Assembly (NCBI GenBank): GCA_905181875.1 | Contig: CAJIZH010000004.1 | Span: 186,001-250,000, forward strand | Direction of reading: 5' to 3' | DNA length: 64,000 nt | From: Flavobacteriales bacterium UBA6770 | GTDB taxonomy: Bacteria; Bacteroidota; Bacteroidia; Flavobacteriales_G; Salibacteraceae | Shown: positions 44,302 to 55,958 of the stretch, piece after piece | How positions within the stretch are numbered: position 1 is the stretch's first letter | Layout: each line of letters starts with the position of its first letter | Notes under the pieces: generated by a model | The model's database searches: none | Told to the model about the DNA's origin: nothing | The model's input: only the letters and a program-made list of their open reading frames with translations | Made by a program: the position numbers and the translations under genes

Positions 44302-47300
44302 TTACTTCTCTAAAGCAGTTATTCTCTTTTCCAGTTTCTTAATTAATTCTTGCTGTGCTTCAATCATTTCTTGTTGTTCTTGCATTCCTTTTACCAAGGG
44401 AACAACAAATTCAGAATAACGAAGACCGTAAATGTCATTATCATTTTTAGGAGCATCTACTCCACTGAAAGAATATCCTACTTTTTTGGCAGCCTTTTCT
44501 ACATCTTGGGCAACAAAACCAGATTGGATAAAATTGAATTTATTAATCATACTTTCTCTTTCTGAATCCGATACAAAAACAGAATCTTTATTTTCCAATT
44601 TGTTTCTTAGTGATTCAGCATTTAAATTATAAGTAACTGGTTTAAGTTCCATAATAAAACTAAGCCCAGCAACGTTAGATTTTAGATTTTCCTTAAAACG
44701 ACCATCAGAAACAGTTGTCCAACCAACTTGACCACCTATACTAGTTATAGAAGAATTACCTACTCTAACCTGATTGTTTGCGACAACCGAAGTATTGTAA
44801 CCTAAAGCCATAGAATTGAAATAACCAGAATTTGCAGCAGGTCCTGCGTTACTTCCAACATAAGTGTTTTGATAACCAGCTTGATTATAAAAACCAGCAC
44901 GGTATCCTAAAGCAGCATTATTATTTCCCGTAGTGGTTCTGTACATCGCTTGGTAACCTATGATAGAGTTTTGATAACCCGTTTGCATGGTATAACCTGC
45001 ACTTCCTCCAACTCCAGAATTATGATATCCTGTTCTCACATTTTGAAGAGCGCCATAACCCATTGCCGTATTCAAATAACCCGTTGTGTTTCGGTACAAT
45101 GAATAAACACCACTACTTGTATTTTGGTAACCTGTAGAATTAAAATAAAGTGCTGCATAACCATGAGCTGAATTGCTATATCCAGTAGAATTCAAACGTA
45201 AAGAAAATGAACCGGTAGCTGTATTACTTGATCCTGTGACACTTGACCCCATTGAATAATATCCGCTAGCCGTATTAAAATTACCAGTTGAGTTAGATAT
45301 TAGAACATTTACACCATAAGCCGAGTTATAATCACCTGTTAAATTGTTTCTTAACGCATTAGAACCTACTGCAGTATTTTGTTGTCCTGAAGTGTTTCTA
45401 TTCAACGCATTGCTACCAACTGCTGTATTGAAGTTACTTGTATTATTTCTTAATGCTTCAGCTCCAAAAGCCGAATTGTAAGCTCCAGTAACTGTATTTT
45501 GTCCAGCATAATATCCCACAAATGAATTTCGGTTATTCGATAAATCATCTTTTTCTCCAGCTCCTTGACCAATAAAGGTAGATAAACCAGAATTGTTATT
45601 TTCTAATCTTGCTCCTTTCATTACCCATTGTTCATTTCCCGCAAGATCAAAACGTATAATATCTTCATCACTTGACTCTTCCATTTGAATTTTTGTATCG
45701 CCATCCAAATCACTCACTTGAGTTGTATCGCCCAAGCTAACGGCCCCTGGGTTTGACCAAGAAGCTTTACCACTAGCATCAGAGGTAAGTATTTTTCCTG
45801 TAGAAGCACCAGTAGGAAGAATGAAATCATCTCGAACTTCTAAATCTCCATTTACCTTCAATTCATCAGCTGCAAAATCCCCATAGATTAAAGGTGATGT
45901 TGAACTAGCAGCACTAGTACTTGCATCTATATAGAGTTTATCCGTTCCTGACTCTGAATAACCCGCTTGGTAACCAATGAAAACATTTCTAGATCCAGTT
46001 AAATTAGTATAACCAGCATTTCGCCCAACAACGACATTGTTGCTACCATTGATATTATTGTTAAGCGCATAATCTCCAATTGTAATATTATACGATCCCG
46101 TAAGCATATCTAGGGCGCTATAAAACCCAAAGGCAATATTCCTTTGACCGCTAGCATTACTACCCAATGCTCGGTAGCCAATTGCAGAATTGTAATTTCC
46201 CGATACATTACCACGTAAAGCATAAAAACCCATGCCTATGTTTCCAGTACCATTATTGTTGTACAAGGCATCGTAGCCAATTCCAACGTTATAATGTTTA
46301 TTGCTACTAGTTCGAAGTGCTCTATAACCCATGGCTACATTTCCAAGTCCTGTTGTATTTGTAAATAATGCTTGAACTCCCATTACAGCATTTCTATAAC
46401 CTGTTGTGTTATTATACATAGAGTTCTGCCCTAATGAAGCATTTTCTGTACCTGAGGTATTAAACAACAAGGAATTATAACCTATTGCTGAGTTGTTAGA
46501 ACCAGTAGTATTCGTCTGTCCAGAATTGTTTCCAATGAATGTATTGTTGTTACTAGATAAATCATCGCTTTGCCCAGCATTGTCTCCAATAAATACTGAT
46601 CCTCCAGTTCCTACTGGCTCGATACGCGTACCTTCCATTCTCCAACGTTCGTTTCCTGCAATGTCAAATCGAATAATGTCTTCATCCGTAGATTCTTCCA
46701 CTTGAATTTTGGTATCGTTATCTGCATCCTTAATTTCAGTTGGAGCGGCGACTGTGGCAGGAGACACCCAAGAAGCGTTACCAGAAGCATCAGAGGTCAA
46801 TACCTTGTTCGCTCCTGCTCCATTTGATAGCCGTATGTTATTTGCGTTAATACCCCCAGAAACTGTAAGTGTTGAATCAGCTGTTGCTGTTCCAATAGCC
46901 AACTTACCAACATTCACCATATCTAGGCCTGCAGCGTTATTACCAGCAGTAAGTACTGAGTCAATTCCTTTAGTAGTGTATGTACTTCCGCCTGGGAGCG
47001 TAACATTATTACCACCAGTAATAGACAAAGTATTTCCACTTAAGGATAATGTCTGTGCGTCGGTGTTATCCAAATAAGGAGCAAGACTTACCGTTTTAGC
47101 TCCTCCAGCATCAGTTACGGTTAGGTTATTCGAATTGATTGCAAATGCTGAATTTAATTCATTGGTAGAATCGTTATCGTTGCTTGTTGTTCCTGAAGGA
47201 AGAGTTACCGAGTTTCCTCCAGTAATTGTCAATGTTGATCCACTAACAGAAAGCGATTGACTATCGGTGTTATCTAATAAAGACGAAACATTTACTGATT

Positions 47301-49545
47301 TTGCACCACCACCATCAGTTACTGATAAAGTGGAACCAGATAAAGCCATTGATGAATTGTATTCGTTTGTTGAATCATTATCATTATTTACAGCGCCGCC
47401 GGATGGAAGTGTAACTGCGTTCCCACCTGAAATGGTTAAAGTACTTCCACTTAGAGATAGAGATTGCGAGTCAGTATTGTCCTTATAAGAACTAAGATTT
47501 ACAGCACTTCCATCTTCTATATACAAGGTGTCACCGGATAGAGAAAGGTTTTGGTCATCAGTATTTACAGTGCCTGAAGGTAAAATAACGGATCCTCCAT
47601 TGCTTAGCTTTAACGTATCGCTAGAAAGAGTCAAAAACTGCAACTCGTTGGTACTGTCGTTATCGTTATTTGGCCCTCCTCCTGCTGGAAGAGTGACTGA
47701 ATTTCCTCCCGAAATACTTAGAGTGCTTCCACTAACGGAAAGTGCTTGGCTATCTGTGTTATCTAATAATGAAGATAAGTTAGCCGATTTCGCTCCGCCT
47801 CCATCGGTAATAGTTAAAGTGCTCCCTACAAATTGAACCAGAGAATTCAGTTCGTTTGTTGAGTCATTATCATTACTTGTTGCAGACGCAGGCAGTGCAA
47901 CTGTGTTTCCGTTTGAAATGGTTAGATTATTTCCTGAAAGTGACAATGCTTGAAGTTCATTAGTGCTGCTGCTATCACCATCAAAACCACTTGTTGCTGC
48001 AGGTAGTTTCACAAAACCGCCATTTGACAGATAAATAGTATCACCACTCATAGATAATGCCTGCGCATCCGTGTTATCCATATAGGTTCCTAGTCCAACT
48101 TTTTTTATTCCAGAAGCATCTGTAATACTTAAGGTGTCGTTAGAAAGTACAAACGAAGAAACAAGTTCATTAGTACTGCTGCTATCACCATCAAAACCAC
48201 TTGTTGCTGCAGGTAGTTTTACGAAACCACCATTGCTTAAATAAATTGTATCTCCACTCATAGTCAATGCTTGAATTTCATTAGTACTGCTACTATCACC
48301 ATCAAAACCACTTGTTGCTGCGGGTAGTTTCACAAAACCACCGTTGCTTAAATAAATTGTATCTCCACTCATAGTCAATGCTTGAATTTCATTAGTACTG
48401 CTGCTATCACCATCAAAACCACTTGTTGCTGCAGGTAGTTTTACAAAACCACCATTGCTTAAGTAAATGGTATCGCCGCTCATAGACAATGCTTGAATTT
48501 CATTGGTAGAATCGTTATCGTTGTTTACTGCTCCACCAGACGGAAGCGTCACGGAGTTTCCACCAGAAATGCTCAAATTATTTCCGGACAAGCTTAAACT
48601 CTGACCATCAGTATTCAAGTATTTGGTTAAAACTACTGGAGTTCCATCCTCTATATAAAGTGTATCCCCAGAAATATTCAAATTCTGATCGTCAGTATTT
48701 ATAGAACCAGAAGGAAGTACGATATAGTTTGACTCACTAATAAATAGCGTATCCAAGTTTCGGCTCAACGATTGAATTTCGTTGGTAGAGTCATTATCAT
48801 TACTTACTGTACCACCTGAAGGTAGAGTAACACTGTTACCACCCGAAATATTCAAAATATTTCCAGCTAATGAAAGGTTTTGAATTTCATTTGTGGAATC
48901 AATATCTGCATCATTTTGGATATGACTATTTATTAAACCAGACAAATAAATACTATCATTTTTTACCTGCTGAGTAACACTTACCAGCTTACTATTAATG
49001 ACCATTATACTGTCATTCAAGCCACTGATGTTCTTTGAATAATCGGTGTTTGGCAAATAAATGGAATTCCCGTTAGACAATCGTAAAGTATCGTTAGCAA
49101 ACGATAGCATTTGTAATTCATTTGTAGCACTAGTGTCAGCATAACTAACATTGGCTGCATATAGTGCATAAGGCACTGAAACCAGCTGAGCATATCCCAT
49201 TACGCTAAAACTACTTCCTCCATTTTGATCCAAAGAAACTTTAAGGACATGCACGTCATTTCCCCACTTAACACCATTCAACAGGCCTATTTTATTAACC
49301 CCTTCACCAATATGAATATTCACCAATCCAAAATCATTGGTTGTTACCATGTGTTCCTCTTGGTACACATTTATACCAACAGAATATTTTTCATGTATGG
49401 AAAGACGCAAGGACACGTTTTGGTTTTGAACAACCTGTCCTGTTGCATTGCGAATAATCGCTTGGTAATTAATTAATTGAGGCGCTTGGGCCATCGAAAG
49501 AAAGGATAGACCAATCGCTAAAGAGAGCAGTACAAGTTTCTTCAT
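44302..49545 (-). CDS. Giant repeat adhesin/tail-fibre-like protein with YadA-type head repeats and C-terminal S74 chaperone
   Basis: 1747 residues with signal peptide (LVLLSLAIGLSFLSMAQAP). Residues about 20-160 form an N-terminal domain. About 165-890 is a series of 34-40-residue beta repeats (LSGNNLSISGGNSVTLPSGG, then NDNDSTNE-type linkers), three of them nearly identical 37-residue units. Two copies of a module follow at about 945 and 1285: a DGDTKIQ.EES.DEDIIRFD..GNE segment and then YadA/Hep_Hag-like G..N.A.G..AL repeats (about 985-1200 and 1310-1590). About 1600-1700 is an S74 intramolecular chaperone (VSDGRFKENLKSNVAGLSFI, Ser and Lys of the self-cleavage site), and the tail is a coiled coil. 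It is likely a trimeric surface fibre that matures by autocleavage. No T9SS tail is present. Confidence 0.85.
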   Translation of the reverse strand: MKKLVLLSLAIGLSFLSMAQAPQLINYQAIIRNATGQVVQNQNVSLRLSIHEKYSVGINVYQEEHMVTTNDFGLVNIHIGEGVNKIGLLNGVKWGNDVHVLKVSLDQNGGSSFSVMGYAQLVSVPYALYAANVSYADTSATNELQMLSFANDTLRLSNGNSIYLPNTDYSKNISGLNDSIMVINSKLVSVTQQVKNDSIYLSGLINSHIQNDADIDSTNEIQNLSLAGNILNISGGNSVTLPSGGTVSNDNDSTNEIQSLSRNLDTLFISESNYIVLPSGSINTDDQNLNISGDTLYIEDGTPVVLTKYLNTDGQSLSLSGNNLSISGGNSVTLPSGGAVNNDNDSTNEIQALSMSGDTIYLSNGGFVKLPAATSGFDGDSSSTNEIQALTMSGDTIYLSNGGFVKLPAATSGFDGDSSSTNEIQALTMSGDTIYLSNGGFVKLPAATSGFDGDSSSTNELVSSFVLSNDTLSITDASGIKKVGLGTYMDNTDAQALSMSGDTIYLSNGGFVKLPAATSGFDGDSSSTNELQALSLSGNNLTISNGNTVALPASATSNDNDSTNELNSLVQFVGSTLTITDGGGAKSANLSSLLDNTDSQALSVSGSTLSISGGNSVTLPAGGGPNNDNDSTNELQFLTLSSDTLKLSNGGSVILPSGTVNTDDQNLSLSGDTLYIEDGSAVNLSSYKDNTDSQSLSLSGSTLTISGGNAVTLPSGGAVNNDNDSTNEYNSSMALSGSTLSVTDGGGAKSVNVSSLLDNTDSQSLSVSGSTLTITGGNSVTLPSGTTSNDNDSTNELNSAFAINSNNLTVTDAGGAKTVSLAPYLDNTDAQTLSLSGNTLSITGGNNVTLPGGSTYTTKGIDSVLTAGNNAAGLDMVNVGKLAIGTATADSTLTVSGGINANNIRLSNGAGANKVLTSDASGNASWVSPATVAAPTEIKDADNDTKIQVEESTDEDIIRFDIAGNERWRMEGTRIEPVGTGGSVFIGDNAGQSDDLSSNNNTFIGNNSGQTNTTGSNNSAIGYNSLLFNTSGTENASLGQNSMYNNTTGYRNAVMGVQALFTNTTGLGNVAMGYRALRTSSNKHYNVGIGYDALYNNNGTGNIGMGFYALRGNVSGNYNSAIGYRALGSNASGQRNIAFGFYSALDMLTGSYNITIGDYALNNNINGSNNVVVGRNAGYTNLTGSRNVFIGYQAGYSESGTDKLYIDASTSAASSTSPLIYGDFAADELKVNGDLEVRDDFILPTGASTGKILTSDASGKASWSNPGAVSLGDTTQVSDLDGDTKIQMEESSDEDIIRFDLAGNEQWVMKGARLENNNSGLSTFIGQGAGEKDDLSNNRNSFVGYYAGQNTVTGAYNSAFGAEALRNNTSNFNTAVGSNALNRNTSGQQNTAVGSNALRNNLTGDYNSAYGVNVLISNSTGNFNTASGYYSMGSSVTGSSNTATGSFSLRLNSTGYSNSAHGYAALYFNSTGYQNTSSGVYSLYRNTTGYLNTAMGYGALQNVRTGYHNSGVGGSAGYTMQTGYQNSIIGYQAMYRTTTGNNNAALGYRAGFYNQAGYQNTYVGSNAGPAANSGYFNSMALGYNTSVVANNQVRVGNSSITSIGGQVGWTTVSDGRFKENLKSNVAGLSFIMELKPVTYNLNAESLRNKLENKDSVFVSDSERESMINKFNFIQSGFVAQDVEKAAKKVGYSFSGVDAPKNDNDIYGLRYSEFVVPLVKGMQEQQEMIEAQQELIKKLEKRITALEK
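48160..48500 (-). repeat. Three tandem 111-bp near-identical repeats inside the adhesin gene
   Basis: The plus-strand string TATCACCATCAAAACCACTT recurs at about 48183, 48294 and 48405 with a period of 111 bp. The copies differ at only a few bases. A fourth, separate copy lies near 47973. They encode the STNEIQALTMSGDTIYL / GGFVKLPAATSGFDG units, and the 37-residue period keeps the frame. Confidence 0.92.
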
Positions 49546-50204: not shown

Positions 50205-50235
50205 CCCCCCCCCTAGAAACTCTAGAGGGGTTTTT
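50205..50235 (+). terminator. C9 tract and orphan terminator-like hairpin
   Basis: Nine C (50205-50213) run into CCCCTAGA, which pairs with TCTAGAGGGG (50221-50230) around a short loop and is followed by five T. No plus-strand gene precedes it. The rest of 50049-50419 has no gene that I recognise. Confidence 0.6.
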
Positions 50236-50419
50236 AGTACCCCTTACGCTACAATTCTCGAACTCTTTTATGTCAAACATTAAAGAAATCTATGGGTTGA
50301 GAAGCTTAATGATTTCTGAGGGTTTAATGACTAATGACCACCAAAACCAATATACGACAAGGTAAAAGGGGATATTAATACTACCTAATGAGTATTAAAC
50401 TATAATAGACAGAAATAGT

Positions 50420-50668
50420 ATGGCAAACACGACAGGACAAAAACACGGAGGAAGGCAGAAGGGAACACCAAATAAATTGACTAGAGAATTACGGTCAATT
50501 TTAAAAGATGTATTGCATCAAGAAATGGAACAGCTTCAAGAAAGACTTGATGAATTGCAACCTAAAGACCGAATGGACGCACTTCTGAAATTAATGCCTT
50601 ATGTATTTCCTAAATTAACCACTATTTCACATTCAGAAAGCGAACCGATTGATTGGAGAATTGAATGA
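50420..50668 (+). CDS. Small basic phage/mobile-element-like protein
   Basis: 82 residues. The N-terminus TGQKHGGRQKGTPNKLTREL carries the GRxKGxxNK basic motif seen at the start of small terminase subunits and DUF5681-like proteins of phages. The rest is a helical pair (LKDVLHQEMEQLQERLDELQ, PKDRMDALLKLMPYVFPKLT). Proteins of this layout are common near mobile elements in Bacteroidota; nucleic-acid binding is likely. ATG start at 50420. The gene marks the left part of the accessory region that ends at the serine recombinase. Confidence 0.7.
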   Translation: MANTTGQKHGGRQKGTPNKLTRELRSILKDVLHQEMEQLQERLDELQPKDRMDALLKLMPYVFPKLTTISHSESEPIDWRIE

Positions 50669-50740
50669 AAAATAAAACACAATAAAGCCGCGAATCTAAA
50701 ATATTGTTTAAGTTCGATATTGAAGAACAATTATTGGTCT

Positions 50741-51360
50741 ATGAAAAAGTATTCCCTTTTCTTTTTGTAATCCTGAGTTTTAGCCTTATTGCTCAGGAGG
50801 ATACTTACCAATCTCGTATTGTTAAAAAACAACGTAGAATAGCTGATGCCACAACTACCATTAGATTAAACCCTAGTGATGCTCAGGCACATGTAAATAG
50901 AGCCATTGCATATGCTGAATTACGTATGTATGAGTCCGCCATAGCTGATTACACAACTGCTATTAGATTAGGCGCTGATTGGGCTGATATATATTACAGA
51001 AGAGGGACTGCAAGGTCTTTCTTTGGCGAGTATAATAGCGCCGTATCTGATTTTACAACTGCTATTATATTAAACTCTGATGCTGCTGTAATGGAAGAAA
51101 ATGATGTATATGTGCGTAATTTAACTTGGATTAAGGCTAGTATATTGAGCGCAAGAGGGAATGCATATACCGATTTAGGCGAGTATAATGCCGCTATAGC
51201 TGATTTCACAACTGCTATTAGATTAAACCCTTATGACACAAAATCCTCACTTCACAACAGAGGGAGAGCAAAAGAAAAGGCAGGTCTACCCTATTGTAGT
51301 GATTACAAGAGAGCTTGTGAATTAGGAAAATGTGATTTGTATAATCGTAAATGCAGATAA
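50741..51360 (+). pseudogene. Secreted TPR-repeat protein with a frameshift in its signal peptide
   Basis: At least three TPR units are visible (AQAHVNRAIAYAELRMYESA, WADIYYRRGTARSFFGEYNS, ASILSARGNAYTDLGEYNAA), with linkers of the type IADYTTAIRLNP, and a C-terminal YCSDYKRACELGKCDLYNRK common in Bacteroidota TPR proteins. The natural start is ATG at 50741, giving MKKYSLFF, but the frame then hits TAA. Adding one T to the five-T run 50762-50766 would give MKKYSLFFFVILSFSLIAQE, a perfect signal peptide joined to the TPR body. Without it, only an unlikely TTG start at 50704 keeps the body open. It may be phase variation, mutation or a sequencing error. Confidence 0.72.
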
Positions 51361-51392
51361 CCTAGACTAGAAACCCTAATTAAAGGCTTTAA

Positions 51393-51475
51393 TCACTCTT
51401 TAAAAACCTTGAACTCTTGTGTTGTTCCGTTATTACCTTCAATAGGTAAAGTCCTTTTGACTGCTTTTCAAATTT
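51393..51475 (-). pseudogene. Relic of a T9SS C-terminal sorting domain
   Basis: On the minus strand, one frame reads SKGLYLLKV-like KGLYLLKV and the next continues NNGTTQEFKVFKE to a stop at 51393. Together they match the end of a type A sorting domain, broken by one frameshift. It lies on the same strand as the endonuclease I fragment at 52831-53034 and could be the other end of that gene. Confidence 0.5.
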
Positions 51476-51534
51476 TCAAAGCCATTACTTAATAATTATT
51501 CTTAATTTCACAAAACGATAACAATGGCCCGTCC

Positions 51535-51867
51535 ATGAAAAAAGCATTCATTTTATTAATGTTTCCTGTACTATGCTATAGTCAAGGAGGATATTATAAC
51601 GTAGACAAGAGTGATATATCAAAGTTATGTGACTTTTATAGAGGCAGTTTTGCTTCAAATACATCTGCTAATAATGCCTTAAATAGGATTCTAAATGTTA
51701 TGGGAATGTCTAAAGAGTTTGTCTTGTCTCCTTGTAGTAATATTGATAATTGTCTTGCAACATCATTCAAGGATATTAGATACATTATGTATTATAAATA
51801 CTGTAAGCAAGAAATTACAAACAACATAAGCTCCTTCATTGGAGGAAAAAAAACAAGTGAATTTTAA
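51535..51867 (+). CDS. Secreted N-terminal fragment of a metalloprotease-like protein
   Basis: 110 residues. Signal peptide: KKAFILLMFPVLCYSQGG. The mature part has ANNALNRILNVMGMSKEFVL, SPCSNIDNCLATSFKDIRYI and MYYKYCKQEI. This layout (two helices, xxPCxxIxNxxAxxxxxxRYIxY) resembles the segment before the HExxH helix in a group of secreted Bacteroidota zinc proteases, from memory of that family. Here the protein stops before any HExxH, so it is either a truncated remnant or a stand-alone domain. ATG start at 51535. Confidence 0.5.
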   Translation: MKKAFILLMFPVLCYSQGGYYNVDKSDISKLCDFYRGSFASNTSANNALNRILNVMGMSKEFVLSPCSNIDNCLATSFKDIRYIMYYKYCKQEITNNISSFIGGKKTSEF

Positions 51868-51894
51868 ATCAAAAATAATTAGTTAAGGAAAAAT

Positions 51895-52719
51895 ATGAAA
51901 ACAACAAATTATACAATATTAATTTCACTGGTTTTTTTTACCATAAGTGGAGTAATAACATCTTGCAAAAAAGGTTGCACAGATGCAATGGCTAGTAACT
52001 ATAGTCAAAAAGCGAAGAAAGATGATGGAACGTGTTTGTTTATGGCTGAGCCACTTCCTACTGAGTTAAAATATAGTAGGATAATGCCCTTAGGCGCATC
52101 AAGGGTAGAGGGAGATCGTCCAAATTTTGAAAGTTTTAGATATGAACTTTGGAAAGATTTAGAACAAAAAAATAGAGTATTTGACTTTATTGGAACGGAA
52201 TCTGATCCCGCAGCATACCCTCTTTTTAACGGTCTTAATTTTGATACTGATCATGAAGGTAATAGTGGTTGGACAACCGTTGAAATACTTAATGGGATTG
52301 CAACTTCATTAAGTCAGATAAATTCGCCTGACATTGTTTTATTTAGTTCACCAGGTGGAAATGATGCTCTGAAAAACTATCCTCTTGATCAAACGATTTC
52401 AAATATTAATTCCATCATAGATTTACTTCAAGTAAATAACCCAAATGTGAAGATTTTAATAGAACAAATGGCGCCTGCTCGATCTGATATTATGACGGCA
52501 ACACTTACTGACTATATTAACAGTTTGCATAGCGAAGTATTAATTATTGCAACAAATAAATCTACGACAACATCTCAAATTATTCCTTTAGATATGTATA
52601 CTGGTTTCAAAGATGACTTCTTGGCAGATGATGTGCACTATAATGAAGCAGGTGCAGATTTTATAGCAAGTCGGTATTATGCAGCATTAGACAGTATACT
52701 AGAATATAAGTTGGATTAG
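51895..52719 (+). CDS. SGNH/GDSL-type hydrolase lipoprotein
   Basis: 274 residues. Lipoprotein signal with Cys at about residue 24 (LVFFTISGVITSCKKG). A short CTDAMASNYSQKAKKDDGTC segment resembles the calcium-binding, Thr/Asp-rich linkers of Bacteroidota surface lipoproteins. The SGNH blocks are visible: block I IMPLGASRVEGDRP (Ser), block III FSSPGGNDALKNY (Gly/Asn) and block V LADDVHYNEAGADFI (Asp-His). It probably deacylates a carbohydrate or lipid ester at the cell surface. ATG start at 51895, 27 nt after the previous ORF. Confidence 0.85.
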   Translation: MKTTNYTILISLVFFTISGVITSCKKGCTDAMASNYSQKAKKDDGTCLFMAEPLPTELKYSRIMPLGASRVEGDRPNFESFRYELWKDLEQKNRVFDFIGTESDPAAYPLFNGLNFDTDHEGNSGWTTVEILNGIATSLSQINSPDIVLFSSPGGNDALKNYPLDQTISNINSIIDLLQVNNPNVKILIEQMAPARSDIMTATLTDYINSLHSEVLIIATNKSTTTSQIIPLDMYTGFKDDFLADDVHYNEAGADFIASRYYAALDSILEYKLD

Positions 52720-52830
52720 GCTATTTAATTGTTGGAGGAATAATAACTTTTGTTAAGTTTAATAGCTCACATGCGGTTGCTACTGCGTTTGGCCTCCTGT
52801 TAATGTTCTCTTTCAACGACTACACTACAA

Positions 52831-53034
52831 TTAAACACTTATCAAAACGTTAGTCAGAATATCCCAAACATCAGTTGAAGAAGAGGTGTAGGGAGACTCG
52901 GTGTGATTTTTAATTATTTGGTTTAGACTGGATTTTAATGAATCACCACCTTTATTAAATGCTGTTTTATAATAGTTCTGTCCTTGCAAAAGGCTAGAAC
53001 ATAACAGACATATTGTAATTGTTACGATTTTCAT
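52831..53034 (-). pseudogene. Truncated endonuclease I family protein (N-terminus only)
   Basis: 67 residues. Signal peptide (VTITICLLCSSLLQGQ) and then YYKTAFNKGGDSLKSSLNQI, IIKNHTESPYTSSSTDVWDIL, which match the first about 45 mature residues of secreted endonuclease I proteins. The frame ends with a few unrelated codons (TNVLISV), and the catalytic region is missing. The stretch 52720-52830 downstream holds no intact gene, although an open minus-strand end, NRRPNAVATACELLNLTKV, remains unidentified. Confidence 0.7.
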
Positions 53035-53252
53035 GTTAGATGTTTTTCTTATTGCTTTCTAGCCAATCGGCATTAGGTAGTATTCATAGAACCTAATTAT
53101 ACGATAAAAGTAAACTTTTTAATATGAGTAAGTGTATCTGAGTAATTGAAGTCACCTTACTCTTTAAGGTAAAACAACAAATGATAGGAGAACTTGCTCT
53201 TCAAGGTCAATGGTATTTAAGCTAGACTTAATAATTAAGCGGCCTAAATTAT

Positions 53253-53289
53253 AAAAACTTACGGTTTGGTAAGTTTTTGTTTACTTTTG
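53253..53289 (+). promoter_or_regulatory. 10-bp dyad abutting a -7 element before the MerR-like gene
   Basis: AAAAACTTAC (53253-53262) and GTAAGTTTTT (53269-53278) are perfect inverted repeats around a 6-nt loop. TACTTTTG (53282-53289) matches TAnnTTTG and lies 21 nt before the ATG at 53311. A dyad just upstream of the -7 box is the arrangement expected of a MerR-type operator. Confidence 0.6.
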
Positions 53290-53310
53290 TAAATAATATA
53301 AAAGTAAATT

Positions 53311-54120
53311 ATGGGAGTATTTGATACAATTGACAAAGGAGTGCTTACCCATGGAGATGATATGCAAATTGGGTTTCATTATGCTTACAATACCGAAAGT
53401 GGTATAAAAACTACCAAAACATTTAATGAAAAGAGATATTCGGTAAGTAAGCATGCCAATTCAAGGTTACTAAACCATTGGGAAAAGGAATTGCTTTTGG
53501 ATGACAACAGGGTAAATAATAAAGGATGGAGAATATATAGTGCTATAGAAGTAATTTGGATTAACATTATTATTGAAATAAGGAAATTCAACTTTTCATT
53601 GGATAAAATAGTTGCACTAAAAAAATCTCTAGAATTACACTCAGATGAAATAAAAATATCAAAAATGCCCCTCTTAGAAATGTATGTGCGTTACGTACTT
53701 TCAAACGTCAAACCTTTCTACCTAATTGTGCGGGAAGGCGGGCAAGGTTCAGTTGGTTTTAGAAACGAAGTAGAATTGCACAAAGAGTTGGGGTTTGTGG
53801 GTAATCATATATGCATAAATCTAAATGACATTATGAAAAAAGTGTTTCCAAATGCAAATTTGGAATTAGAATTTAAGGTAGATTGGAAATTGAACGAGGC
53901 AGAAGAAGATTTAATTAGACTGATTAGAAGTGGTGAGTTTAAGGAAATCGAAATCAAAACGAGAGAAGGAAATATAAATACTATTGATGCTTTAGAATTA
54001 ATTAAGGAACAATCTCGTTTTAGAGAAATAGCAAACAACTATGATTTTCAAGATATAACTTCAAAATATAGAGAAGGACGCTTAGTAGCTATTGAAAGAA
54101 AGGTTAAAAAGAAATATTAA
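53311..54120 (+). CDS. MerR-like DNA-binding protein of the recombinase module
   Basis: 269 residues. Residues about 40-110 resemble a MerR winged helix: SKHANSRLLNHWEKELLLDD, NRVNNKGWRIYSAIEVIWIN, IIEIRKFNFSLDKIVALKKS (compare RxWExxGLL, NxxGYRxY and LGFSLxEI). The C-terminal part (about 120-269) is an unrecognised domain with VREGGQGSVGFRNEVELHKE and a basic tail. It is probably an autoregulated transcription factor, possibly a recombination directionality factor for the serine recombinase encoded 213 nt downstream (inference). A dyad and a -7 box lie directly before the ATG. Confidence 0.65.
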   Translation: MGVFDTIDKGVLTHGDDMQIGFHYAYNTESGIKTTKTFNEKRYSVSKHANSRLLNHWEKELLLDDNRVNNKGWRIYSAIEVIWINIIIEIRKFNFSLDKIVALKKSLELHSDEIKISKMPLLEMYVRYVLSNVKPFYLIVREGGQGSVGFRNEVELHKELGFVGNHICINLNDIMKKVFPNANLELEFKVDWKLNEAEEDLIRLIRSGEFKEIEIKTREGNINTIDALELIKEQSRFREIANNYDFQDITSKYREGRLVAIERKVKKKY

Positions 54121-54198
54121 GGTACGCAGCCATAATTGCAGTTAATACAAGTTTTATTCACCTCAGATATTGAGGAGATAGGATACTTTAACTAAAAT

Positions 54199-54336
54199 GT
54201 GATTTCAATAAAAAAATGCAATGAAATTTTAAACAAAAAGGGAAATCGATACAGTGAACAAGAAGTTAAATCAATTCGAGATTATTTAACTCAGATGGCT
54301 GAAATTATTTGTGAACTTAAAATGAAAAAGGAATGA
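54199..54336 (+). CDS. Small helical protein (45 aa) coupled to the serine recombinase
   Basis: GTG start at 54199; product VISIKKCNEILNKKGNRYSE, then a helical QEVKSIRDYLTQMAEIICEL and a short lysine-rich end. Its TGA overlaps the recombinase ATG (ATGA at 54333-54336), which indicates translational coupling and argues that it is real. Small proteins of this layout precede serine recombinases in other Bacteroidota, to my recollection. Its function is unknown; it may assist or regulate recombination. Confidence 0.7.
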   Translation: MISIKKCNEILNKKGNRYSEQEVKSIRDYLTQMAEIICELKMKKE

Positions 54337-55925
54337 ATCAATTGGAAGGTAAAAGAGCACTTCTTTACAGGCGAGTAAGCACCAGTAATCAAAAAGAATT
54401 TGGTAACAGTTTGAGCGCCCAAAAAAGTTCATTACGTGAATTTTGTGTGAAGAAAGGAGTAGAGGTTATCAAAGAATTTGAAGAAGATTATTCTGCAAAA
54501 GATTTTGACCGACCAGTATTCAAAGAAATGCTCGAATTTGCCATTCAAAATAAAAACAAAATTGATTATTTACTAATAGTAAGTTGGGATAGGTTTTCAA
54601 GAAATGCACTTGAAGCATTAAAGACTATCAGTGATTTTGAGAACCTTGGCATTGAGATAAATTGCATTAATAACTGGATAGACCCTGAAGACCCGAGTCA
54701 ATTAATAATGCAATTAATGTATTTAGGGCTTCCTGAAGTTGATAACAGAATTAGAAGTCAGAAAGTAAAGATTGGGATGAGACAAGCCCTAAAGGATGGA
54801 CGCTGGATAAGCCCACAGCCTAAAGGATATGTTAAAGGACGAGATTATAGCGGCAAACCATTAATGCAACCTGACCCCGAAATTGCTCCTTTAATTGCTA
54901 CGCTTTTCGAAGAATATTCTCTTGGAATATATTCCCAAAGTCATTTATTAAAATCCAATAAATACAAATCACTCAAATTATCAAGAAGTAATTTAAGCCG
55001 AATCTTATCTCAAATAGCATATTCGGGTAGAATAAAAGTCCCTGCATATAAAGATGAACAAGAACAGATAGTAAGAGCTTTACACAATCCTTTGGTATCA
55101 GTTGAAACCTTTGATAAAGTTCAACTTATTATGAATAAAAAACGATTTAATAAAGGTCGGTCAAAAGGAGCAATATTAAGCCCACAGCTTCCGTTAAGAG
55201 GTTTCTTAAAATGCCTTGATTGTGGCTCTAATCTTACTGGAAGCGGTTCAAGGAGCAAAACAGGAAAAAGACATTTTTATTATCACTGCAACTCGCATAA
55301 AAATTGCAAAACACGTTATAAAGCATCTGAATTAAATGGGAAATTCACAGAATTATTAGAGTCAATAAAACCTCCAAAAGAAGTAGCAGAGTTGTTTAAG
55401 TTGATATTAGAGGATAAGTATGAATCTTCCAATGAAAGTCGATTTAAACAAATCAAGAACATTGATTCTAAACTGTTAAATTTAAGAACAGATAAAGAAA
55501 TACTGACTGGGAAATTGTTGAAGGGTGTAGTTGATGATTCAACCTATAAAATTTATTCCCAAAAAATTGATGAGGAAGAGCGTGAATGTAAATCTGAAAA
55601 AATTGAGTTGTCCGATGATAAAGGTGAGTTAAAGTCATTTCTAAATTTTGGTGTTGAAATGCTTCAAAACGTAGATTATCTTTATGAAAATGGCAGTCCT
55701 GAGCTTAAACAAGGTCTATTGAGTTCGATACTTGATAATAAACTGGTTTTCAAAAACGGTATGTATCGAACCCCGAAATTCAAACAAGGGTTCGCTTATA
55801 TATATCAGAATACCAATAAGATGAAAGGATATAAAATAAAAACGGGAGATAGTCTTTCGAATATCTCCCGTCTAGTACCGAAGGCGGGAATCGAACCCGC
55901 ACTCCCAGAAGGAACTGGATTTTGA
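54333..55925 (+). CDS. Large serine recombinase (integrase) ending inside tRNA-Leu
   Basis: 530 residues. The N-terminal resolvase domain has ALLYRRVSTSNQKEFGNSLS with the catalytic Ser, DYSAKDFDRPVFKEMLEFA and SWDRFSRNALEALK. Then a recombinase domain (KIGMRQALKDGRWISPQPKG; SQSHLLKSNKYKSLKLSRSN), a zinc ribbon FLKCLDCGSNLTGSGS ... HFYYHCNSHKNCKTRY, and a coiled-coil stretch (about 360-440). The last about 28 codons are not recombinase-derived: they read through the tRNA terminator hairpin and the antisense of the tRNA (VPKAGIEPALPEGTGF) and stop in the tRNA anticodon region. It catalyses site-specific integration and excision. Confidence 0.93.
   Translation: MNQLEGKRALLYRRVSTSNQKEFGNSLSAQKSSLREFCVKKGVEVIKEFEEDYSAKDFDRPVFKEMLEFAIQNKNKIDYLLIVSWDRFSRNALEALKTISDFENLGIEINCINNWIDPEDPSQLIMQLMYLGLPEVDNRIRSQKVKIGMRQALKDGRWISPQPKGYVKGRDYSGKPLMQPDPEIAPLIATLFEEYSLGIYSQSHLLKSNKYKSLKLSRSNLSRILSQIAYSGRIKVPAYKDEQEQIVRALHNPLVSVETFDKVQLIMNKKRFNKGRSKGAILSPQLPLRGFLKCLDCGSNLTGSGSRSKTGKRHFYYHCNSHKNCKTRYKASELNGKFTELLESIKPPKEVAELFKLILEDKYESSNESRFKQIKNIDSKLLNLRTDKEILTGKLLKGVVDDSTYKIYSQKIDEEERECKSEKIELSDDKGELKSFLNFGVEMLQNVDYLYENGSPELKQGLLSSILDNKLVFKNGMYRTPKFKQGFAYIYQNTNKMKGYKIKTGDSLSNISRLVPKAGIEPALPEGTGF
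55842..55871 (-). terminator. Rho-independent terminator of tRNA-Leu
   Basis: On the minus strand ACGGGAGATA (55871-55862) pairs with TATCTCCCGT (55851-55842) around a 10-nt loop and is followed by TTTTATTTTA. It begins 5 nt after the tRNA 3' end and overlaps the recombinase 3' codons. Confidence 0.9.
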
Positions 55926-55958
55926 ATCCAGCGCGTCTACCAATTCCGCCACTTCGGC
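55876..55958 (-). tRNA. tRNA-Leu (anticodon CAA)
   Basis: On the minus strand: acceptor stem GCCGAAG (55958-55952) with CTTCGGT (G-U at the first pair), D-arm GGCGGAATTGGTAGACGC, anticodon arm CTGGA-TTCAAAA-TCCAG with CAA, a long variable arm (TTCCTTCTGGGAGTG) and T-arm GCGGGTTCGATTCCCGC. It reads UUG codons. CCA is not encoded. The 3' end faces the recombinase, which uses it as its attachment site (inference). A TTG-N19-TAnnTTTG promoter lies upstream. Confidence 0.97.

Follow-up and report, generated by a model that had tools for sequence, protein, structure and literature searches.

A serine recombinase gene whose 3' end is probably exchanged upon integration at tRNA genes

The Int of Mx8, from Myxococcus, is an integrase of the tyrosine type. 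In this phage, attP is part of the int coding sequence, integration generates a new int 3' end, and, according to passages of a review, the resulting protein is not inactivated, its specificity being altered (PMC6070905). Passages of the Islander paper list Mx8 among the integrases extending across attP, the term 'integrase' referring there to the tyrosine family only (PMC4383910). Another arrangement is that of the archaeal suicidal tyrosine integrases of the SSV type, in which the recombination site is located inside the integrase gene and integration splits the gene; excerpts of the source call self-disrupting recombinases exclusive to archaea (PMC8371274).

For serine integrases, the tDNA targets were given as unknown in 2014, only tyrosine integrases being known at tRNA genes, in the Islander passages (PMC4383910), while excerpts of a 2011 article called serine integrases at tDNA rare, and gave tRNA targets (Ser and Leu, respectively) for the serine recombinases of phiRSM1 and of mycobacterial AICEs (PMC3218068). 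The word 'tRNA' is absent from the main text of a large LSR survey (PMC10083194). In the LI integrase, the motif of the zinc domain is located 5 bp nearer the centre in attB than in attP, as described in excerpts of the corresponding article (PMC3783163). Lastly, passages on integrative conjugative elements (ICEs) of Chryseobacterium describe a 17-bp repeat in tRNA-Glu for the ICECleSHZ29-like type II ICEs, ICECleSHZ29 itself being of type I, inserted in tRNA-Met, with a circle detected by inverse PCR (PMC12561888).

The window analyzed here is a stretch of 64,000 nucleotides from Flavobacteriales bacterium UBA6770. The region of interest is very probably the right end of a site-specific element of 5.6 kb. 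Its large serine recombinase (Int) would insert DNA at the last bases of tRNA or tmRNA genes; the element anatomy (Table 1) is well supported. The element (50235-55872) was bounded by means of an empty site in a genome of the same genus (G001), where the left flank of the window is matched up to 50202, followed by 33 bases with a hairpin, after which the match resumes at window position 55873 and spans the tRNA. The core, TAGTACC (7 bp), is present as a single copy in this empty site and as two copies in the window, 5,638 bp apart. It is one of two 7-mers common to the left- and right-end stretches, and the one found at the empty-site boundary; TAGTACC followed by TCGAAC is matched twice in the window (attL and attR), for 0.00 expected.

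This comparison also answers several proposals of a first-pass annotation of the same DNA. The empty tRNA-Leu locus that it advised seeking in related genomes was found in G001, with the left flank joined to the tRNA, and this locus places a mobile boundary at the recombinase, rather than being an empty site without one. The attachment site had been placed inside the 3' part of tRNA-Leu: its location at the tRNA 3' end holds, and 'inside' is slightly off, as the core takes only the last four or five tRNA bases, the remainder being trailer. The annotation had, moreover, recognized a serine recombinase with 3' codons made of antisense tRNA-Leu, attributed its last 28 or so codons to the hairpin and the antisense tRNA, and put the stop in the anticodon stem-loop region. 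The Pfam domains and the end of the open reading frame (ORF) inside the tRNA predicted by ARAGORN agree with this description. Because the hairpin precedes the tRNA and the ORF ends inside the latter, both together form the last ~27 Int codons, and the TGA stop (55923-55925) corresponds to tRNA positions 34-36, overlapping the anticodon.

Table 1. Positions of the features of the element and of its target in the window.
Feature	Position	Strand	Basis or remark
Displaced host terminator of tRNA-Leu, outside attL	50205..50234	-	Hairpin and T-run
attL core TAGTACC	50235..50241	+	Shared 7-mer at the empty-site boundary
Left-end segment, putatively coding the circular-state Int tail	50237..50365	+	Translation across attP; similar tails elsewhere
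TCGAAC of the P arm, 21 nt from core G	50258..50263	+	Offset common to attP-state sequences
Small ORF, phrog_15261	50420..50668	+	E 5e-6
TPR protein, cargo	50704..51360	+	Pfam
GDSL/SGNH hydrolase, cargo	51895..52719	+	E 3e-8
Protein with MerR-type HTH	53311..54120	+	E 6e-7
45-codon ORF	54199..54336	+	ATGA overlap with int start
Int, large serine recombinase, integrated form, 530 aa	54333..55925	+	Pfam domains, fold matches
Replacement intrinsic terminator of tRNA-Leu, within int	55843..55870	-	Hairpin and T-run; own-arm pairing family-wide
attR core TAGTACC	55873..55879	+	Same comparison as attL core
TCGAAC, antisense of T-arm, 16 nt from core G	55891..55896	+	Offset common to members
Target tRNA-Leu(CAA), left whole	55875..55958	-	ARAGORN

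The Resolvase, Recombinase, and Zn_ribbon_recom domains of Int all score above the Pfam gathering threshold, and stop at residue 326 of 530, well short of the core. The best Foldseek matches of the Int model are serine integrases, and helices 349-396 and 402-427 of this model can be read as a coiled coil. Among 30 members, R87 and R90 are invariant, and R14 and S16 (the latter presumably the catalytic serine) are conserved in at least 90%. Int is, thus, classified as a large serine recombinase, with the domains, a putative coiled coil, and the conserved active-site residues of this group. The C-terminus of its integrated form reads ...SLSNISRL-VPKAGIEPALPEGTGF, followed by the stop. The 45-codon ORF upstream of int displays a Y(S/T)..E...IRD-like pattern, the strict form of which is found upstream of 42 of the 135 family members, versus 1 of 288 control windows; it has no match in NCBIfam, and is a candidate accessory or directionality factor, the latter being required by large serine recombinases for excision.

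The seven proteins of the element contain no conjugation genes detectable with Pfam, the only domains being TPR, GDSL, MerR-like HTH, and recombinase ones, and the window element does not qualify as an ICE. Its cargo looks like a patchwork of pieces of secreted-protein genes. A dispersed repeat, split between 51392-51471 and 53194-53245 of the window, has copies in G000:C1, G000:C3, and G002. These repeats (51350-51472 and 53196-53253) at first appeared integron-like, an interpretation that was rejected, as their minus strand reads like a coding piece of a T9SS C-terminal domain (CTD). Outside the element, a 1,747-aa ORF (44302-49545) matches a single stretch of G001 many times over, in overlapping alignments, and is, therefore, internally repetitive; the protein next to it has a Por secretion tail, and the ORF likely encodes a secreted repeat protein. 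A second congeneric genome, G002, shares the left end with the window at 93% identity and, beside the same tRNA, int is reduced to its last ~75 codons, with TTACC in attL versus GTACC in attR. This locus (L064, 2084-3885) has the features of a decayed copy of the window element, with a different left core and an int remnant expanded by TA repeats.

The target is the sole tRNA predicted by ARAGORN in the window. The host terminator has been moved outside attL, where the position of the displaced hairpin matches that of the tRNA-adjacent hairpin in the G001 empty site, and an int-internal hairpin (CGGGAGATA..TATCTCCCG), with a T-run on the tRNA strand, substitutes for it next to the tRNA. The strength of this hairpin was assessed throughout the family described below, by folding the 56 bases before the tRNA, on the tRNA strand, for 122 members (148 before de-replication at 80%). 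Hairpins made of their own arms reach a mean of -20.5 kcal/mol, versus -9.1 kcal/mol when the arms are mixed between members, and the own hairpin is the stronger in 117 of the 122; in 119, its energy is over 2 s.d. lower than that of dinucleotide shuffles. At least four consecutive A on the sense strand are found in 145 of the 148 members, versus 93 further upstream. As own arms fold better than mixed ones, the arms covary, which argues that the substitute terminator is under selection, despite being coding sequence too. The 26 Ints outside the anchored terminator set mostly lack a comparable hairpin; L122, L154, and L201 have one (-22.5 to -25.6). L201 overlaps a tRNA-Leu in a different frame, and L122 and L154 look like broken tails.

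Related Ints were collected from 100 relatives and from 395 genomes of the class, queried without the tRNA-coded residues, as well as from named genomes and viral contigs (best 80 matches each). This yielded 250 non-redundant ORFs, examined as sets of 105 and 145, 72 of the latter being viral. Close Ints were defined as genome-locus ORFs with a stop and a phmmer E ≤ 1e-60 to the window Int, the window included, and the antisense-tRNA ending was scored by ARAGORN or by a GxEP-type motif. Such an ending, in a tRNA or tmRNA, is shared by 124 of the 143 close genomic Ints (window counted), and is, therefore, not due to chance. It is also present in 16 of 32 distant genome loci (E 1e-60 to 1e-15), and in 4/4 close and 2/61 distant viral loci. 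Later counts refer to 148 tailed Ints, including six viral ones. Among phage records, no close relative was found, only three records at 26-27% identity, and none among plasmid records; family scans with the single protein as query also gave none. Two loci (L294 and L335) belong to bins titled Alphaproteobacteria and Verrucomicrobiota, corresponding to either a host jump or misbinning.

ARAGORN names the target for 123 of the 148 tailed Ints, the other 25 being recognized by the motif alone. These targets comprise 11 tRNA isotypes and tmRNA: Leu 30, Arg 26, Met 13, tmRNA 11, Glu 10, Lys 7, Pro 7, Asn 6, Val 4, Phe 3, Ser 3, and Ala 3. On a FastTree phylogeny of 203 rows, the tailed/untailed trait requires 27 changes, compared to 50 when shuffled: it is clustered, without forming one clade. 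The isotype requires at least 58 changes on the same tree, which suggests that target switches were frequent; the tree itself contains 57 weak forks and long branches. The integrated tails run for 8 to 122 codons from the core. In 100 of 115 close members, the T-loop motif is read in the GxEP frame, versus 13 in another frame and two without motif, a count in which some second tRNAs are mis-assigned; visual inspection shows L201, L307, and L346 to be genuine exceptions, in which the antisense tRNA is read in another frame. The 'GIEP/GFEP' C-termini of such Ints are host tRNA DNA, which calls for caution from annotators.

A sequence feature that could account for this range of targets is TCGAAC. 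A TCGAAC-like match is found at offset 16 from the core G in 146 of the 148 integrated loci, and TC(G/A)AAC at offset 21 in all 15 attP-state sequences, one of which reads TCAAAC. The attP motif, thus, appears to lie 5 bp further out than its attB counterpart, a shift seen on one half-site only; on the other, no mirrored TCGAAC was found, and TTGTCC occupies positions -12 to -7, TCC being strongest. By analogy with characterized serine integrases, the zinc domain of Int may read TCGAAC, and the 5-bp shift could enable a single family to target many different tRNAs.

What the int gene encodes before integration can be deduced by joining the two ends of the element. In the reconstituted attP of the window, the int frame stays open and would give a 556-aa Int ending in ...SRL-VPLTLQFSNSFMSNIKEIYGLRSLMISEGLMTNDHQNQYTTR before the stop; the left-end tail of the window runs from VPLTLQFSNSFMSNIKEIYGL to ...TTR, with the stop at 50363-50365. 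Finding the corresponding segments in relatives requires locating attL, for which a plain repeat search gave nothing usable, because the cores are too short. In G312, attL was first reached through weak matches to the tRNA-Glu end (17-bp core match): a 17-bp copy of this end is located ~112 kb upstream and a second one ~25 kb beyond, both adjoining a displaced hairpin, with tails VARRGIISNHFLKDLRRLVG and ...LKRLAG, each followed by a stop. The DNA motif from G312, together with a core match, gave attL in L308, L350, and L360; a long core alone was sufficient in G014 and G226, and a protein pattern was used in G346 and G288. Pairs of attL-like sites, as if from tandem elements, are found in G312 (L413 and L414, ~25 kb apart) and in G333 (L421, ~2.4 kb apart). 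The empty sites of G312 and G333 were also sought by their right flanks, the left flanks showing no synteny to the compared stretches, and the same search gave no good synteny for G266.

Because protein-pattern scans select for the very tail that they report, a DNA-only scan and a frame test are used here as evidence instead. The scan required a core match of at least 5 bp and TC(G/A)AAC at a given offset, for offsets 14 to 28, and returned 14 sites at offset 21, none of the 14 remaining offsets giving more than one. When the cores were dealt anew among the elements (300 shuffles, in which the same core can recur), the mean was 2.54 hits and the maximum 8. One of the 14 sites, in G333, resembles an ordinary gene and was counted as chance; the other two G333 sites, with no more than 5 bp of core match, may come from other elements. 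The remaining 13, these two included, are located upstream of 11 Ints, and attL is, thus, identified for 11 of the 148 tailed Ints, a low number due to most of the upstream stretches examined being at most 15 kb long. Inspected by eye, the host side of the 13 sites mostly shows the displaced hairpin, weakly so for L308, and that of G288 resembles the end of another int.

The left-end tails are alike, with SN followed, in most cases, by a helix-like stretch. T occupies the second position of codons 10, 11, 14, and 17 in 9-10 of 12 tails, versus 0-1 of 12 at codons 13, 15, and 16, a spacing which is that of an amphipathic helix; G226 and G396b fit this pattern poorly. In addition, L116, L294, and L319 (of the 'no tRNA' class) and, by eye, L132 are genes that end in a tail of the left-end type without any joining, and no tRNA was found in the surrounding stretch examined. 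L221 also matched the tail pattern, which sits elsewhere in this case. The similar left-end tails and the four unjoined genes suggest that integration replaces a conserved C-terminus. From these comparisons, the window int and those of its relatives would differ at the 3' end between attP and the integrated state, in line with the first-pass proposal that the Int C-terminus depends on that state. Integration is, thus, predicted to swap a conserved C-terminus for residues templated by the host tRNA, and to bring a new tRNA terminator.

The following mechanism can be proposed. Int would insert the element DNA at the 7-bp core, at the tRNA 3' end, shifting the host terminator to the far end, and the substitute terminator, antisense in the last int codons, would take over. 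The circular element would encode Int with the left-end tail, and the integrated form carries residues from the antisense T-arm. With TCGAAC at offset 16 in attB versus 21 in attP, a zinc domain reading this motif, near universal in T-arms, may tell attB from attP by the 5-bp shift, and T-arm reading may be how one family spread over 11 isotypes and tmRNA. The full-length circular Int would perform integration, and tail loss would alter the enzyme, either blocking further integration or easing excision, until excision restores the tail. It is an evenly balanced proposition that Int has, in its tail, a built-in state switch. More tentatively, Int might be a self-rewriting integrase, for which the DNA state sets the reaction direction, either in place of a directionality factor or alongside one, and the T-arm-reading zinc domain makes any tRNA gene a target.

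The swapped residues may, nevertheless, have no effect on the enzyme, attP and the terminator merely occupying the int 3' end and the frame being, of necessity, kept open, a serious possibility that is given distinctly less than even weight. It would fit the linker before the core (residues 500-513), which is hairpin-coded and modelled as disordered (pLDDT <50), the variable length of the integrated tails, and the very low confidence at which AlphaFold models the circular-state tail of L116. The frame test argues against it: in 12 of the 13 DNA-selected sites (the G312 near-copy being excluded), the int frame is open through codon 19 in 12/12 left-end tails, versus 4/12 and 3/12 in the other frames. 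Most of these tails are, moreover, alike in sequence, and a functionless tail would hardly persist.

It is rather unlikely that this likeness reflects conservation of the DNA only, the left end being a P arm and its translation a by-product. The same six TCGAAC bases are found in 14/15 tails, so that part of the tail is conserved at the DNA level; T-rich columns also occur in frames 1 and 2, with peaks up to 9, and hydrophobic-codon peaks are not specific to the int frame. Likewise, the differences between the distant tails of the window and G312a, over codons 4-17, show no lean to third positions (9, 7, and 4 at positions 1, 2, and 3). Against this reading, the T pattern extends past nt 30, beyond the 25-bp half-site, and in the closer trio of L350, L360, and G288 (the first two found by the DNA motif, the third by the protein pattern), 15 of the 27 tail differences are at third positions. 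Finally, a dead or immobile remnant, whose overlap would be an accident of decay, is very improbable, for although G002 retains such a remnant at the same tRNA, the window Int is open, with intact domains and conserved residues, and an empty site exists.

A tail acting as a state switch would tie the DNA state to the reaction direction, a long-standing question for serine integrases. The family is, in addition, frequent in the Bacteroidota genomes searched, where its 11 isotypes and tmRNA come with a sequence-based reason, and it might provide integrases whose attP and attB sites are readable from tRNA genes.

Compared to A118/LI, Bxb1, and phiC31, the window Int has the same domains and fold, and shares the 5-bp shift of the zinc motif with LI (excerpts of PMC3783163); an int crossing attP is unmentioned for these systems in the literature passages compared. 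The phiRSM1 and AICE recombinases each use one tRNA, with no mention of an int overlap in the passages compared (PMC3218068), whereas the window family uses 11 isotypes and tmRNA. The 17-bp repeat given for the ICECleSHZ29-like type II ICEs corresponds, in reverse complement, to the G312 core; the words serine and tyrosine are absent from the main text of that article (PMC12561888). In the literature searched, outside of which most subscription journals fall, no description of such a tail swap of a serine Int at tRNAs was found. Unlike the SSV type, as described in the excerpts compared, the window Int would lose its tail only, its catalytic domains staying whole. As in the passages on the Mx8 IntP, the window int runs across attP and would gain a new 3' end on integration. 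It differs from what these passages describe in belonging to a family of serine recombinases, with many members, many tRNAs, and a terminator in the overlap. An end swap of the Mx8 type was, thus, already known, and what appears to be new here is a serine family found at many tRNAs, with the int end swapped.
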